From: Culicoidibacter larvae
GTDB lineage: Bacteria; Bacillota_I; Bacilli_A; Culicoidibacterales; Culicoidibacteraceae
Assembly (NCBI RefSeq): GCF_005771635.1
Contig: NZ_VBWP01000012.1
Coordinates: 1 to 39,536 of the forward strand
Direction: 5' to 3'
DNA: 39,536 nucleotides
In this document: positions 22,588 to 39,390 of the stretch, piece by piece
Position numbering within the stretch: position 1 is the stretch's first letter
Layout of the letters: each line of letters begins with the position of its first letter
The notes under the pieces: model-generated
Told to the model about the DNA's origin: nothing
The model's input: the letters and a program-made list of their open reading frames with translations, nothing else
Database searches by the model: none
Translations under genes and position numbers: made by a program

Positions 22588-23953
22588 TTATACCGCCTCC
22601 TTTATTCGTTTTTTGACTGCTTCAATGAGTTGCTGCTGGTTAATGTCTTTATTTTCAAGGGCAGTTAATACATCCTCGTCAATAGTATCCTTGGCAACAA
22701 TATGATTGATTATAACCGTTTCTTTTTGGCCTTGACGCCACAAACGGGCGTTTGCCTGTTGGTATAGCTCCAGGCTCCAATTAAGCCCAAACCAAACAAT
22801 TATATTGCCTCCTGATTGCAGATTTAATCCGTGCCCCATACTAGCTGGGTGGACCAATAATAATTGTATATCTCCATTGTTCCATCTAGCGATATCATCA
22901 TCACTATCCAAGGTACATGGTTCCATCTTGTCAAAATATTTCCTAAGCTTCATCAAATCATGCTGATAATTGTAGAACACCATGACCGGCTGACCTTGTG
23001 CCTCTTCGATAATCTCTTCTAATGCCTTAAGTTTTTCATCATGAATATCAATAACGTTCTTCTCATCATCATACACAGCCCCATTGGCAAACTGCAGCAG
23101 TTTGTTTCTTGCTGCCGCCGCTGCTAAAGCGACTATATCCGCATTATCAACCTGTAATATCTGATTGCGTTCAAACTCTTTATATTGCTGCATAGTCTTA
23201 TCCGGTAAATCAATGCGGATATAGTTATCTATTCGCTCAGGCATATCCAACCAATCAACTGCCTCCATACTGATACACAACGGCTCAATCTTTTTATGGA
23301 TCGCTTTATCTGCATCTGGCCGCAGCCCCCACTTGTATACAATATGACCGTTCTGCTTAATCGGAGTGAAGTATCTTTCTCGATATCCGGTTATAGTCTT
23401 ACCTAAAGCCTCACCTCTATCAAGCAGATAGATTTGCGGCCAAAGGTCAAGCAGCCCGTTGGGTGCCGGCGTTCCAGTCAATCCAACAACACGTTTGCTT
23501 AATGGACGTACTTTTCGCAATGATTTAAACCTCTGAGATTTTGCACTCTTAAAGCTTGAAAGTTCATCAATTACAACCATATCAAAATCCCAGTCCTGTC
23601 CTAATTCATTAACTAACCATGTGACATTTTCTCGATTAATTATATATAAATCGGCTTTTTTTCGGATAGCCGCTTGTCTCTCCTTAACTGTTCCGATTAT
23701 TTTGGACACAGTGAAATCTAAATGGTCCCATTTATTTATCTCATCAGTCCAGGTATTTTTTGCCACCCGCAGCGGGGCAATGATTAACACTTTTCGGACA
23801 CTGAAATAATCGTACATCAGCTCATCAATTGCTGTAAGGGTTGTAACGGTTTTCCCTAATTCATAAACCCATATCTAAAAATAGCCCTGCTTGATTATTG
23901 TCTAAAATATGATCTAGTGCTATTTGCTGATATGGGTGTGGTTTAAATTCCAT
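22588..23953 (-). pseudogene. SNF2-family DNA helicase, broken by a 7-nt insertion in Walker A
   Basis: The intended product is a phage SNF2/DEAD-like helicase (about 451 residues). ATG 23953 starts MEFKPHPYQQIALDHI and runs to LDMGL, then hits TGA at 23861 because 7 extra bases (TGAATTA, complement of 23857-23863) lie between the codons for GL and GKT. Removing them restores LDMGLGKTVTTLTAIDEL in frame with the rest. The remaining 409-codon frame from 23817 keeps MVVIDELSSFK (motif II), GLTGTPAPNG (motif III) and LWRQGQKETV (motif VI) but would lack Walker A and has no good ribosome binding site. It is probably inactive. Confidence 0.88.
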
Positions 23954-24387
23954 TACTTACCACCTCCCGATTTTGCTTTGTCCAATTGTGCATGATGTCT
24001 TGCGTGTTCTTCTTGAGAAGAAAACACCATTAAGTTACTTGGATCATTATTCCTCTTATTTTCATCAATATGATGCACTACTTCGCCAGGGTTAAGTGGT
24101 CGACCTAGCATTTTTTCAGCAATAACTCGATGTTCGTGTCTACCGTGGAATTTCGTGTATGTTTTTCCTTGTCCTGTTCCAAGCTTTGCATTTCGTAATT
24201 TTGTTCGCTCGGATTGAGTCATGCCACCAGGTTGGTTGACACGTTTTGAAAGATTGTCCTCCCCCATTTGGGCTCGGCGACATTCTTGACTACAAAAAGT
24301 ACGATTGCCTCTTGGCTTACCTGGGTAACCCTCAAAAGCTATCCCACAGCGAAAACAAACTCTCGTTCTGTCATATATTCGTCTCAT
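23953..24387 (-). CDS. HNH endonuclease with N-terminal zinc finger
   Basis: A 144-residue protein. A treble-clef-like Cys cluster (C11-x2-C14 and CSQEC) is followed by the HNH region EVVHHIDENKRNND...NLMVF...EEHARHH (about 103-133), with the catalytic His pair and Asn. Such free-standing HNH nucleases in phages are often homing endonucleases. It lies between VRR-NUC and SNF2 genes, fitted tightly (stop TAATG overlaps the SNF2 start). A role in replication or packaging is possible but the position does not favour packaging. Confidence 0.85.
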   Translation of the reverse strand: MRRIYDRTRVCFRCGIAFEGYPGKPRGNRTFCSQECRRAQMGEDNLSKRVNQPGGMTQSERTKLRNAKLGTGQGKTYTKFHGRHEHRVIAEKMLGRPLNPGEVVHHIDENKRNNDPSNLMVFSSQEEHARHHAQLDKAKSGGGK

Positions 24388-24666
24388 TTACATCGCCTCC
24401 AACTTCTCAATGAAATAATCTATTTTTGTTTTTGTATTCAACACCAAGGCGCAACAGCCTTGCTGATTAATTTGATTAATTACATAGTCCTGTAACTTCC
24501 GGGTTTTCCCGGTTGGCCGTTTCACTTCAACAAACCAAACTTTGCCCTTATACAAGACTATCCGATCAGGCACCCCGTTATTTCCTGGACTGACCCATTT
24601 GTAACAGAGCCCGCCTATATTTCTTACCTGCTTCATAAGGTACTTTTCTATTTGACTCTCAAGCAT
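24388..24666 (-). CDS. VRR-NUC domain nuclease
   Basis: A 92-residue protein that is almost only a VRR-NUC domain: EKYLMKQVRNIGG, then the catalytic core GVPDRIVLYKGKVWFVEVKRP (PD...ExK, read in parts as GVPDRIVL and FVEVKRP) and LQDYVINQI. Single-domain phage VRR-NUC proteins are proposed to cut branched DNA such as Holliday junctions. Here it sits in the replication module after the Cse60-like gene. Its ribosome binding site is weak (GGTGAG), so it may be translationally coupled to the upstream gene. Confidence 0.9.
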   Translation of the reverse strand: MLESQIEKYLMKQVRNIGGLCYKWVSPGNNGVPDRIVLYKGKVWFVEVKRPTGKTRKLQDYVINQINQQGCCALVLNTKTKIDYFIEKLEAM

Positions 24667-24671
24667 GGTTG

Positions 24672-24836
24672 CTACTCACCGTCCGTATATAAGATTGTTG
24701 CTGTACGTACAAGGTAACCATTATTATCCGATGTTGTATCTACGTGCAAATCGATTATGTTCTTACCCTTGGTAAATTCATTGATTTCAGCTTCCAGTTT
24801 TTTAATGTAGGGGTTAGCCAATATTTTTACTTTCAT
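24672..24836 (-). CDS. Cse60-like small phage protein
   Basis: A 54-residue protein starting MKVKILANPYIKKLEAEINE and containing IIDLHVDTTSDNN then LVRTATILYTDGE. The pattern (MKVK, amphipathic helix, beta-strand, TSD, YxxxILY) is that of Spore_Cse60-like proteins, which occur in phages near VRR-NUC genes. ATG 24836 is chosen because AAAGAGAG is 9 bases upstream; an ATG at 24845 has no spacing. It is the first gene downstream of the repeat array. Function unknown. Confidence 0.75.
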   Translation of the reverse strand: MKVKILANPYIKKLEAEINEFTKGKNIIDLHVDTTSDNNGYLVRTATILYTDGE

Positions 24837-24863
24837 TTCAAACATCTCTCTTTCAAAATTGTT

Positions 24864-25116
24864 TGTAACAATGTAACACGCATGCGCGTATGCGCACTCT
24901 CATGTGGGTATTAGGCGGAAATATATGCATATTATCTGCCTAATAGGTATTTAATTTAAATAACGTCAAAATATTGTTACATTGTTACAAAATACATTTT
25001 CATTATGTATAATATGGGGTTTTAGTGTAACAATTAATTGTTACAAAATGTTACATTGTTACAGCATGTAACAATATATTGTTACACTTACTAAAATTGT
25101 TACACCTATTGTTACA
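24864..25116. repeat. TGTAACA/TGTTACA repeat array: candidate replication origin or operator cluster
   Basis: Twelve copies of the 7-mer TGTAACA or its reverse complement TGTTACA lie in 253 bases: 24864, 24872, 24975, 24983, 25026, 25039, 25049, 25057, 25067, 25080, 25098 and 25110 (starts). Some are tandem with 8-base spacing (TGTTACATTGTTACA), others inverted. An AT-rich stretch (about 24941-24975) and a hairpin lie inside. It follows the primase-helicase gene and precedes the Cse60-like gene. This looks like iterons of a phage origin; binding sites for a regulator are the alternative. Confidence 0.6.
24910..24944. other. Hairpin within the candidate origin
   Basis: Outer stem ATTAGGC / GCCTAAT (24910-24916 and 24938-24944) encloses an inner AATAT/ATATT stem around ATGC. 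On its left is a GC-rich element with ATGCGC repeated (about 24882-24896), and on its right an AT-rich stretch. It is non-coding and lacks a T-run, so it is not a terminator. It may be a structural part of the origin. Confidence 0.5.
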
Positions 25117-27517
25117 TTTTATTTATCCTGAAATATCCTCTTTGGACTCCGTACCTTTTGTTAAATCTAACAGACTTTTCACTTCGCTCCCAGCCTTCAA
25201 TATTATTCAGAATACTGTTAATATCACGAGCTTTCAGGTTGTCGAAATCCCTAAGCTCCCGCTCAAACAATTCACACCATATCTCCATCGCACACACCCG
25301 CATACGTTTCTTAACACCAACTAATTTTCCTGTGATACTATCTTCATGACCACTGATATAATCCCTCCGAAGTCCTAGGTTCATATCGTCCCAATTATCC
25401 GGCAGCGGCTTCTCAAGGTAGTCCTTTATTAAGCCAATCCGTGGATCATGTTCCATGTGCTCCTGCTGTCTCTCCACAGCTGCATCTGCCACATCACCAC
25501 TCAGATAAAGCGGGAACCCAGCCTTATAGGCAGCTATTGCCTCCGCCCATACTTGGTCTATCGTGGCATCGTCCAAGTCATCAAAGACACTTTTAGCGCC
25601 ACCCTCAGATGAAACAACTATCGGCAGAAAGCGTCGGTTTCCAGTACGGTCTCTTAGAAACTCCATATCATTAGTAGTACCGAAGAAAACACACTGGCGT
25701 TTATTGGTAGTTACCCGCCGGGCAAAAGCCCGTCTATAGGTATCCTCTTGCTTGCTGATAAAATGCTTAACTGCCTCAACTTCCGCCTTACGCGTAGCTG
25801 TAAGCTCAGCCATTTCAATCAACCAAGCGCCATCTAAAGACTCATAGGCCTCTTTCCCGCTTACGGTTGTAATCGTATCGGTGTACCAACCTTTAGACAG
25901 CTTCGCAATTAAATGCGATTTACCTAGCCCTTGGGTACCGACCAAAACGGCCATAGTATCAAACTTGGTACCAGGTCTATAAATACGCGCAACTGCTGCA
26001 ACTAGCATCATCATTGATACTGTCTTAGTATATTCGTCATCAGCTGCGCCAAGATAATCGATGAATATTGAACTTGCTCTTTCGGTTCCATCCCACACAA
26101 GAGTATCTAAGTACTCCTTAACCGGATGAAATTGCCGCTCTGCGAAAACTATGTCAGTGGCATCCTGTATCTTCTGCCGTGACTGCATTTCGTAAACCCG
26201 CTCAATGTACCAACGAAGTCCGGCGTCATCGGTATCGCTCCAGTATTGCCCTGTAGTTGACCACGGAAGTTTATCAGGACGCTTAACGAGATTGTTTTTA
26301 AATGTGTCCATACCAACAATACCATGCTTTAAGTTAGGGTCTTGCGTGATAATCAGCTTGAAGTTCTCAATACATTCAACATACTCACCAGTATAGTTGT
26401 CAGTTTTCAACTCTTTAAGCCAACTGTCATCGGTATCCTCTTCTTGGTCATCAACAACATCAAACTCACTTGCAGCACTTGCCAATCGCTCCCGACCAAT
26501 AGTGAGCTTCACCTCTACATCATTCGACGCAAATTGCCGCATCGCCTTAAAACTCGGCAAACGATTAACCGGAGTATCCGGCTTGCTATCTTCGTCTTGG
26601 TCACCGAATAAATGAATGCGGACCAAATCAAAGGCATTGCATAGCTTTCCACCAACCGGGTCGGTTCCATGATTGCTGTAAGCAAACTTATCATCATAGA
26701 TAACCAGCCCGGCAGCACTTGAGCCATTCACATAGGTATATCGTCCTAGCACATCACAGGCAATATACACATCAGGCAAAAAGGTCTCTATCGCTGCATC
26801 AATATCATAGGTTCTGCAAAACGCGCCAATGATGCCATCTTTCTCTAGCGGATCCCCCTGCTTATCGGCGTGGCGCTTTCGGATACCCTCGCTGCGTGAT
26901 GACTCCGGCCACTCACTGGTATCGCGCCAATCCTTATACTCACCAAGAACAGCATCGGCATCGATAACCGTACCATCTATATGATGGTGAATAAACTCCG
27001 CATCACGACTGACACTCGGGTAGTACATCAAGCGGCTTGCCTGATAGGTTGTATCATCAAACCAATCCATGCCAATCTTTTCAGCCAGCTTACGAGCTAT
27101 CGCTTGATACTCATCGGCATCCACATCCCTATTGAGCGGAGCAACGAGCCGCAGCCGTGCTTTTTTCGCTGTATGGCTGTGGGTCGAATAGATAACACAC
27201 TCAAAGTCATGGAACAGCTCAAGCGTATCGATGAAATCATTTGGCGCAAAGTCAGCATCCAAAGTCACCAATGAGCGGGATACTACATTTGACTCCAGTC
27301 GTCGGCCATTCTTTAAATGTCCACCAACAAAACCGCCAACATCCTTAGCCTCAGCCTGCTGTGTCTTACTCATTTTTTTATATTCAGCAGCAGTCTCTTT
27401 TGTTCTGATAACATCAGCCAATTTCTCCACCAGTTCCGGCCAAGTAATGGTCTTATTCTTCCATTTGGTCGATTTCCGGTTTTTACCCTCAGCTATTGTT
27501 ATCTCGATATTTTTCAT
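25112..27517 (-). CDS. VapE-like primase-helicase
   Basis: An 801-residue replication protein. The N-terminal ~250 residues look like a primase-polymerase domain (acidic pair in LVTLDADFAP, and SRLMYYPSVSRD). The C-terminal VirE/VapE-type helicase has Walker A GTQGLGKSHLI, Walker B WLIEMAELT, and FFGTTND followed by RDRTGNRRFLP. Such proteins prime and unwind the phage origin. The start is ATG 27517, with GAAAGGAGAG upstream. The gene is immediately upstream of the repeat array, and its last bases contain the first repeat copies. Confidence 0.92.
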   Translation of the reverse strand: MKNIEITIAEGKNRKSTKWKNKTITWPELVEKLADVIRTKETAAEYKKMSKTQQAEAKDVGGFVGGHLKNGRRLESNVVSRSLVTLDADFAPNDFIDTLELFHDFECVIYSTHSHTAKKARLRLVAPLNRDVDADEYQAIARKLAEKIGMDWFDDTTYQASRLMYYPSVSRDAEFIHHHIDGTVIDADAVLGEYKDWRDTSEWPESSRSEGIRKRHADKQGDPLEKDGIIGAFCRTYDIDAAIETFLPDVYIACDVLGRYTYVNGSSAAGLVIYDDKFAYSNHGTDPVGGKLCNAFDLVRIHLFGDQDEDSKPDTPVNRLPSFKAMRQFASNDVEVKLTIGRERLASAASEFDVVDDQEEDTDDSWLKELKTDNYTGEYVECIENFKLIITQDPNLKHGIVGMDTFKNNLVKRPDKLPWSTTGQYWSDTDDAGLRWYIERVYEMQSRQKIQDATDIVFAERQFHPVKEYLDTLVWDGTERASSIFIDYLGAADDEYTKTVSMMMLVAAVARIYRPGTKFDTMAVLVGTQGLGKSHLIAKLSKGWYTDTITTVSGKEAYESLDGAWLIEMAELTATRKAEVEAVKHFISKQEDTYRRAFARRVTTNKRQCVFFGTTNDMEFLRDRTGNRRFLPIVVSSEGGAKSVFDDLDDATIDQVWAEAIAAYKAGFPLYLSGDVADAAVERQQEHMEHDPRIGLIKDYLEKPLPDNWDDMNLGLRRDYISGHEDSITGKLVGVKKRMRVCAMEIWCELFERELRDFDNLKARDINSILNNIEGWERSEKSVRFNKRYGVQRGYFRINKM

Positions 27518-27550
27518 CAAGCATCTCTCCTTTCTGTAATTTTATTTGAT

Positions 27551-38088: not shown

Positions 38089-39390
38089 ATGAAACTGATC
38101 TATGATGAAATTTCAGAATTAAATATTAAACGTTATGAGGAGCCTAGTGACAACGGAAAAGTTGTATACTATAATGGCTTTTATAGAGTTAAAAATATTA
38201 AGACCCGAAAGTGGGAAAATAAACGCATCCGAGGCAAAAGAAAACGTCTAACAAAAAAGCAAATCCGTGAGATTTTCACAGAGATATATCTACTGTTTGA
38301 GCAATACGGCATTATTGACGAAAAGGATAAGCCAGGATTTGATAATCCCGCTGAGCAGATACTTTTTGATACAATGTGTGATGAGTTTCTAAAACATTAC
38401 AAGCAACTTGTTCAGCCATCATCTTACTTGCGAGTTAAGCGACACGCTGAGATTGTAAAAGAGGAATTCGGCAACGAGGATATGCGCTACATATCAGGCA
38501 ACAGGCTCGAGAGCTATTACTATAGCCTACAGTCAGGTGAAAACGAGAAGCAGCATAAATATAGCTACTCAGAGGTATCAGGTCGGCATTTCGTAATAAA
38601 GTCCACATTTAAAAGAGCACGTCAATATCACGGCCTCCAAAATAACCCCTGCGAGTTTGCCATCCCGAAGAGAACTATGAACGACAAACTTAGACAGATA
38701 GAGGGCTCTAAGAAACACTGGACCATTGAGGAAGTAAATAAAGTAGTTGCAGCCATTGATAAAGAGATTGAAACTACTAAGAAAGATATTCACAAGGGTA
38801 AATATTGGTATAACCGGTATATACGCGCATTAAGAAATAAAGTAATCATCTGTACCACTATTTGGGCAGCTACAAGAAAGGGCGAGCTACTCGTATTTAA
38901 AGACAGCTCACTCAAGTATGACAAGAAAGAGTCAATGTATTACCTATATTTTGCCGGCACACAGACCGAAACCGAAGAGGGCTACGTTTTCAAGGACGGA
39001 ACCAAAACGGGCGATACAGGCAAAATTTATATACATGACAGCCTCGCTGAGACTATACTAGCCCTCATAGATGAACATAAAAAGCTCTATGGTTACGATC
39101 CGGATAGATTTGATATGGCGAGCACATACGGAAAAGCCCTATCGCGGAACCAGGTGAATAGAATTTTTGAACGATACGCAACAGCAGCCGGAGTCCACTA
39201 CATCCCACCACATAAAGGGCGCCGCAGCCACGGTTCTATCCTGATAAACAGTGACCAAGAATGGACTCTTGAGGAGATACAAGAACGGCTGCGCCACTCT
39301 TCGTCAGAGACAACTAGAAAATACTACATCGAGATATATGACTCTACCCGAGCAAAGTCAGCTAAGAAGATAAATAAATTACCACTATAA
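38089..39390 (+). CDS. int: Site-specific tyrosine recombinase (integrase)
   Basis: A 433-residue integrase. Catalytic residues: Arg263 (ATRKGEL), His375-x-x-Arg378 (HKGRRSH), His403 (RHSS) and Tyr412 (RKYYIEIYD, with the usual 9-residue H-to-Y spacing). The N-terminal ~90 residues, rich in basic residues (RIRGKRKRLTKKQIRE), are the arm-binding and core-binding parts. It inserts the phage into the tRNA 3' end and excises it. GAAAGGA lies 11 bases upstream of ATG. It sits beside attR, between the attachment site and the accessory gene. Confidence 0.96.
   Translation: MKLIYDEISELNIKRYEEPSDNGKVVYYNGFYRVKNIKTRKWENKRIRGKRKRLTKKQIREIFTEIYLLFEQYGIIDEKDKPGFDNPAEQILFDTMCDEFLKHYKQLVQPSSYLRVKRHAEIVKEEFGNEDMRYISGNRLESYYYSLQSGENEKQHKYSYSEVSGRHFVIKSTFKRARQYHGLQNNPCEFAIPKRTMNDKLRQIEGSKKHWTIEEVNKVVAAIDKEIETTKKDIHKGKYWYNRYIRALRNKVIICTTIWAATRKGELLVFKDSSLKYDKKESMYYLYFAGTQTETEEGYVFKDGTKTGDTGKIYIHDSLAETILALIDEHKKLYGYDPDRFDMASTYGKALSRNQVNRIFERYATAAGVHYIPPHKGRRSHGSILINSDQEWTLEEIQERLRHSSSETTRKYYIEIYDSTRAKSAKKINKLPL

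Follow-up and report, generated by a model that had tools for sequence, protein, structure and literature searches.

The closest known systems to the one described here are the SaPI and PICI replicons, the origin of Streptococcus phage Sfi21, satellite phage P4 and Cch2 of SCCmec. The C-terminal domain of SaPI Rep recognises iterons directly downstream of its own gene, and Cch2 is a self-loading helicase that uses its C-terminal domain to bind direct repeats immediately after its own gene (PMC7581432 for both). In PICIs, an AT-rich region flanked by two sets of iterons, located just 3' of rep, forms an origin able to support replication of a plasmid (PMC6092414). The annotated origin of Sfi21 lies in 302 bp of non-coding DNA immediately following the primase gene and contains doubled GTAACT iterons (GTAACTAAGTAACTA-type doublets) inverted around AT-rich DNA; this element (PER) acts as an origin that infection activates (PMC6356513). 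In P4, type 1 iterons (TGTTCACC) are present both in crr, which immediately follows the alpha gene, and in the annotated origin approximately 4.5 kb from crr. The P4 alpha primase is DnaG-like, not of the archaeo-eukaryotic type. Few phage genomes have an annotated replication origin, and no earlier description of arrays after VapE genes was found among the open-access papers searched, which do not include the primary SaPI, P4 and Sfi21 papers.

The window (the whole 39,536-nucleotide contig of Culicoidibacter larvae that was analysed) resembles the SaPI and PICI systems in three respects: a homologous VapE-type helicase with a matching C-terminal domain, a putative origin directly 3' of the initiator gene (the first iteron overlaps the VapE stop codon), and two iteron sets (10 + 2 iterons) around an AT-rich region. 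Those elements are satellites, whereas the window is the complete prophage of a tailed phage, with genes for the large terminase subunit, the portal, the major head protein and the tape measure, a repressor-like gene, and an integrase gene at 38089-39390; classification of the window as a PICI or SaPI element itself was rejected because full virion genes are present. Sfi21 is similar in having a non-coding stretch directly downstream of the primase-helicase gene with inverted doubled iterons and AT-rich DNA, but its initiator is a P4-family primase_Cterm protein (TIGR01613) with no detectable homology to VapE. P4 is similar in that its primase-helicase is a single chain and iterons immediately follow the gene encoding it, and the P4 iteron GGTGAACA fits the VapE-family iteron profile, GTGAACA being the iteron of some VapE phages. 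However, alpha belongs to another helicase family, the alpha-adjacent array is crr with the origin elsewhere, and crr comprises two 120-bp direct repeats, in contrast to the inverted blocks around an AT-rich spacer in the window. Assignment of the window to the P4 alpha/crr system was rejected for want of a P4-family primase_Cterm match to the window VapE. Cch2 differs from the window protein in being a D5/Primase_Cterm-type helicase with three 5-nt iterons, and does not belong to a phage.

The repeat array and its prophage setting

The replication genes of the prophage are on the minus strand and encode, in order, a DUF2800 protein, an Enc34-type ssDNA-binding protein, a family-A DNA polymerase, a DUF3268 protein and the VapE-type primase-helicase. 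Past VapE, the order is the array, a 57-aa ORF (24672-24845, minus strand; phrog_26938, E = 1e-7), a VRR-NUC-like endonuclease gene (24388-24666, minus strand; phrog_93, E = 4e-31), an HNH endonuclease gene and an SNF2-type helicase gene, the HNH gene (23953-24387) being inserted between those of VRR-NUC and SNF2. An identical 20-mer (AAGTCCTGTCATCCGCACCA) that resembles an attachment core is located at both contig ends (1-20 and 39517-39536), the right one adjoined by the integrase gene, and the host genome has four more exact copies (two on contig C3 and one each on C2 and C8); alternatively, the shared terminal sequence may be an overlap from circular assembly.

The array consists of twelve exact copies of TGTAACA/TGTTACA within 24864-25116 (starting at 24864, 24872, 24975, 24983, 25026, 25039, 25049, 25057, 25067, 25080, 25098 and 25110). 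Only two copies (10823 and 24600) are found elsewhere in the window; the number expected by chance in its whole length is 6.4. The best 7-mer in dinucleotide-shuffled versions of the gap reached at most 4 copies (mean 2.4) versus the 12 observed, and as many as 4 copies of one 7-mer are found in no 300 bp of the window outside this region. Thus far the recount agrees with the original prediction, which had described twelve exact 7-mers on both strands, some in tandem with an 8-base period and others inverted, with an AT-rich stretch and a hairpin, just after the primase-helicase gene and with no similar array elsewhere in the window. Its description of 253 non-coding bases needs a small correction: the copy at 25110-25116 overlaps the helicase stop codon at 25112-25114 (TG-TAA-CA, minus strand), so that the array begins within the end of that gene and is not wholly non-coding.

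Ten copies in both orientations, of which the one overlapping the stop codon is the first, form a proximal block (24975-25116, minus strand), and the distal block (24864-24878, plus strand) is a pair of TGTAACA copies (24864-24870 and 24872-24878) in the opposite orientation to the innermost two copies of the proximal block. There are three tandem pairs with an 8-base period (24864/24872, 24975/24983 and 25049/25057), and a perfect inverted repeat with 17-nt arms (24862-24878 and 24975-24991) borders the spacer (24879-24974, 96 bp), which is the largest inter-iteron gap and the probable melting region. The helicase side of the spacer (24918-24974) is 79% A+T by composition, a polarity that is a family average, and the opposite end is a CpG-rich stretch of alternating purines and pyrimidines (CGCATGCGCGTATGCGCAC, 24879-24905), with a similar trend in the spacers of relatives. 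The dyad ATTAGGC...GCCTAAT (24909-24945), which an inverted-repeat search placed with arms at 24909-24919 and 24935-24945, is the hairpin noted earlier. GC skew was uninformative, with no switch at the array.

Inverted 7-mers could also serve as operators, in this case for a phage transcription regulator controlling the genes downstream of the array, and weak promoter-like matches are present in the region. The promoter and terminator scan of the region was at chance, however (7 promoter-like matches versus 5.0 expected), no regulator gene is conserved beside the array, a spacer of approximately 95 bp and ten or more sites would be unusual for an operator, and iteron words track the wing of VapE and not the nuclease, as detailed below. 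Regulation of transcription is therefore a very improbable function of the repeats.

The VapE-type primase-helicase

The proposed initiator is an 802-aa protein (25112-27520, minus strand; Pfam VapE-like domain, E = 8e-77; phrog_256), of which residues 362-791 are homologous to PDB entry 7pds, PriRep1 with dsDNA (profile comparison, E = 4.8e-120). The AlphaFold2 model of the whole protein (pLDDT 88) also has 7pds as its best Foldseek match (E = 4e-38, TM by target 0.78-0.82), followed by viral PrimPol/D5-type primase-helicases. These matches are consistent with a primase-helicase, the putative N-terminal primase being assigned by the likeness of its fold and by PHROG names. The C-terminal domain (residues 698-802; 25115-25429, minus strand) is a predicted winged helix (AlphaFold2 pLDDT 90.5) with the corresponding part of PriRep1 in 7pds, with dsDNA, as its best structural match (Foldseek probability 1.00), and is the proposed reader of the iterons. 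Its wing hairpin (codons 776-800; 25121-25195, minus strand) varies with the iteron and contains residue 792 (25145-25147), the x of YGxQ, which is V in the window. NCBIfam has no match for the window VapE, whereas P4 alpha and the Sfi21 initiator match TIGR01613, and hhalign detected no reliable homology between the window VapE and these two P4-family primase_Cterm helicases.

Arrays in related phages and prophages

A nucleotide search of phages with the array region gave no matches. The uniqueness that this empty search might suggest was rejected, as a protein-anchored comparison shows that the words differ. Protein-anchored sampling of phages and prophages yielded 174 VapE loci including the window, from Staphylococcus, Enterococcus, Listeria, Clostridioides, Clostridium, Bacillus and many uncultured Bacillota. 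A VRR-NUC gene follows VapE in 163 of them, usually after 200-350 bp. The gap after VapE has a significant 7-mer array (one that beats all 100 shuffles, p-values being floored at 0.01) in 141 of 171 phage or prophage loci, which are phylogenetically related, and five or more copies of one 7-mer in 128; no equal-length control stretch inside or upstream of VapE has such an array.

At the exact-7-mer threshold, 30 of the 171 loci have no significant array. Two of these (L014 and L021) have clearly degenerate arrays, others have displaced arrays, and four (L017, L163, L168 and L172) are unexplained, with no array detected in the DNA that was fetched; their iterons may be strongly degenerate, or the array may lie further away. 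Where the gap after VapE has been lost or other DNA intervenes, the array is often 1-2.5 kb downstream: it is 1-2 kb away in L040 and L041, which have intervening DNA, and a predicted displacement was borne out in a cluster with VRR-NUC directly after VapE, where a GTGAACA array is located approximately 2 kb further on. The members of this cluster are L059, L093, L217, L218, L221-L225, L240 and L242, and their word is the same as in the iterons of P4.

Phages of C. difficile and Listeria have TGTCAACA as their iteron word, those of Enterococcus GTATCCA and those of Staphylococcus TGATGCAACA, with GTGGTCCA and CGGTTGTA among the others, and most words fit one register, nG(G/T)N(A/T)ACA. A DNA-only search with the doubled iteron of the window found 26 contigs including the window phage, most with dense TGTAACA clusters; besides the window phage, eight have VapE near the match. 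Residue 792 is V or P near the doubled-iteron matches, a suggestive observation made post hoc in few independent lineages. Dense TGTAACA clusters with no VapE in the fetched flank are present in L352, L353, L358, L360, L361, L363, L364, L366, L368 and L370, where the same iteron is perhaps read by another initiator family.

The layout is conserved in relatives. Among 98 dereplicated loci, the largest inter-iteron gap has a median of 95.5 bp (interquartile range 85-104), is within 80-115 bp in 66% of loci versus at most 41% in 200 random-placement simulations, and has a median absolute deviation of 10.5 versus 21.6 under random placement; the inner iterons flanking this gap are inverted in 83 of the 98 (p = 7e-13). 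The two blocks of the window, 10 + 2 copies around 96 bp, are of this kind. The spacers of relatives are AT-rich on the VapE side and CpG-rich with alternating purines and pyrimidines on the other. In the spacers of 72 relatives, the dyad words ATTAGGCG and ATTAGGCA are found in 11 and 10 loci, versus 0.2 and 0.3 in shuffles. A TATARGAAAA-like word is enriched in relatives' spacers, and an ATTAGG/CCTAAT dyad is present in those of many loci. The longer dyad ATTAGGC...GCCTAAT and the TATARGAAAA-like word are conserved in spacers whatever the iteron word. A layout that was described as unique to phage satellites is thus widespread in full phages, and a simple rule for locating the candidate origins of very many Bacillota phages is to look between VapE and VRR-NUC, or just beyond.

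The distance between crr and the P4 origin shows that adjacency to the initiator gene is no proof of a start site. The array could be a cis-required accessory site like crr, bound by VapE and serving replication or copy control, with synthesis starting elsewhere, since the iteron cluster beside alpha is annotated as crr and the distant origin carries iterons of the same type. This is unlikely, given that the window is without a second array and that the layout is like those of the SaPI/PICI and Sfi21 origins and unlike the long direct repeats of crr.

Co-variation of iterons and the VapE C-terminus

Co-variation was analysed in 249 phylogenetically related loci, of which 192 fall into close clusters (27, so that cluster counts are small); the nearest VapE to that of the window in the collections is approximately 55% identical, and the close-pair comparisons thus cover other loci. 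The DNA of C. difficile phages is mostly 96-100% identical on either side of a short variable island, consisting of the last ~25 VapE codons and the array, within which every iteron differs in sequence but not in position and the AT-rich core is retained. The VapE proteins of L046 and L050 have 9 residue differences, all at 779-799, and their iterons (TGTTACCA and TGTCTACA, respectively, nine copies each) differ in all nine copies; those of L025 and L056 have 13 differences, none after residue 665, and all iterons are shared (TGTCAACA). L050 and L118 have the wing and the iteron in common despite cores that are approximately 4% different, indicating that wing and array travel together.

Within close clusters, iteron type and residue 792 partition almost perfectly: R, S and K are found with TGTCAACA, TGTTACCA and TGTCTACA, respectively, in C. 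difficile; V, L, K and R with TGCAACA, AGTAACA-type words, AGGGACG and TGTCCA in staphylococcal loci; and L, V, T and I with four words in an Enterococcus-type cluster. Of the pairs with different iterons (10 clusters), 99% differ at residue 792, against 10% of the pairs with the same iteron (24 clusters); by this contrast the residue ranks first of 809 columns. A universal rule in which this residue alone sets the word was rejected, for K is found with both GCAACAA and GGGTACA in one cluster; as a sole predictor it also fails for TGTAACA, which accompanies V or P in most loci but R in L151. Residue 792 is not sufficient: given other differences in the wing, the same residue can accompany different words.

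Part of this co-variation is physical linkage, the array and the wing codons being adjacent. Against plain co-transfer of adjacent DNA stands the asymmetry of divergence in iteron-different pairs, which is 0.38 in the last ~30 residues of VapE and 0.13 in the preceding 30, and 0.18 in the 30 residues with which the nuclease on the other flank begins, the VapE end being higher in 10 of 10 clusters. Iterons are fixed while the background drifts in L149/L026 (1/70 versus 111/248 differences) and L027/L140 (0/56 versus 68/252), a result that is partly built in by the selection of these pairs for a common word.

An origin with iterons read by the VRR-NUC nuclease, the SNF2 helicase or a host initiator would agree with the regular presence of VRR-NUC after the array and of SNF2 in 91 of the 98 dereplicated loci. 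Residues that co-vary with the iteron, however, are over-represented in the VapE C-terminal domain (2.6-fold) and helicase domain (3.3-fold), not in VRR-NUC (1.1), SNF2 (0.5) or the polymerase (0.2); the start of VRR-NUC is 99% identical between C. difficile phages in which all iterons change; and host DnaA cannot explain different words among phages of one host species. Such a reader is improbable in the extreme. Mutual information ranked VapE above the neighbouring genes but did not separate its C-terminal domain from the helicase domain, for which reason the close-pair comparisons were used. Iteron similarity is correlated with VapE domain identity only weakly and non-specifically (r = 0.14-0.25; standardised coefficients 0.146 for the C-terminal domain, the highest, and 0.124 for the helicase), and therefore identification of the reader is not based on whole-domain correlation. 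The comparisons of close sequences point to the C-terminal winged helix of VapE as the most likely reader of the iterons.

Proposed function of the array

Position, layout, homology to PriRep1 and co-variation of the iterons with the VapE C-terminus together indicate that 24864-25116 is very probably a SaPI-like prophage replication origin with lineage-specific words. Copies of the VapE C-terminal winged helix would bind the TGTAACA iterons, and the two blocks, facing each other across the 96-bp spacer, would place helicase rings at both of its ends; with its AT-rich half melted, the rings would load and unwind outwards, after which the putative N-terminal primase part and the phage family-A DNA polymerase would start synthesis. 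The original prediction of a candidate origin, with iterons bound by the primase-helicase or another early protein, is accordingly retained as the best-supported reading, narrowed to the first of these binders and, within it, to the winged helix. The prediction had also looked to related phages for conserved spacing of the 7-mer, and had counted absence of the repeats from relatives with the same replication genes against itself. The layout is kept in relatives, and the exact 7-mer is usually absent, with another word in its place.

The window origin is a candidate for a further case of the SaPI/PICI type, in a full phage, with a pairing of iteron and wing that appears unexpectedly readable at the family level. 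Iteron words may be specific to phage lineages, each word being matched to the VapE wing of its lineage, in which case the origins of different phages should be orthogonal. On balance, the co-variation tips slightly towards a readable initiator-origin code in VapE phages, whereby the wing hairpin, with residue 792 as the main switch, would set the three or four variable bases of the generic nG(G/T)N(A/T)ACA, and wing codons and array would be exchanged as one cassette, giving non-cross-reacting origins in closely related phages and in prophages of the same host. If the pairing is true, the DNA-binding specificity of the initiator can be read from sequence and is directly testable with natural variants; the pairing would also explain which phages are blocked by an origin decoy such as the Sfi21 PER, and which prophages coexist without interfering.

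The host of the window prophage has a second VapE prophage (L021; host contig C3, 94686-100034). Its gap contains a degenerate array of the GGAACAA/GAACAA type, unlike TGTAACA, as would be expected if coexisting prophages keep orthogonal origins.
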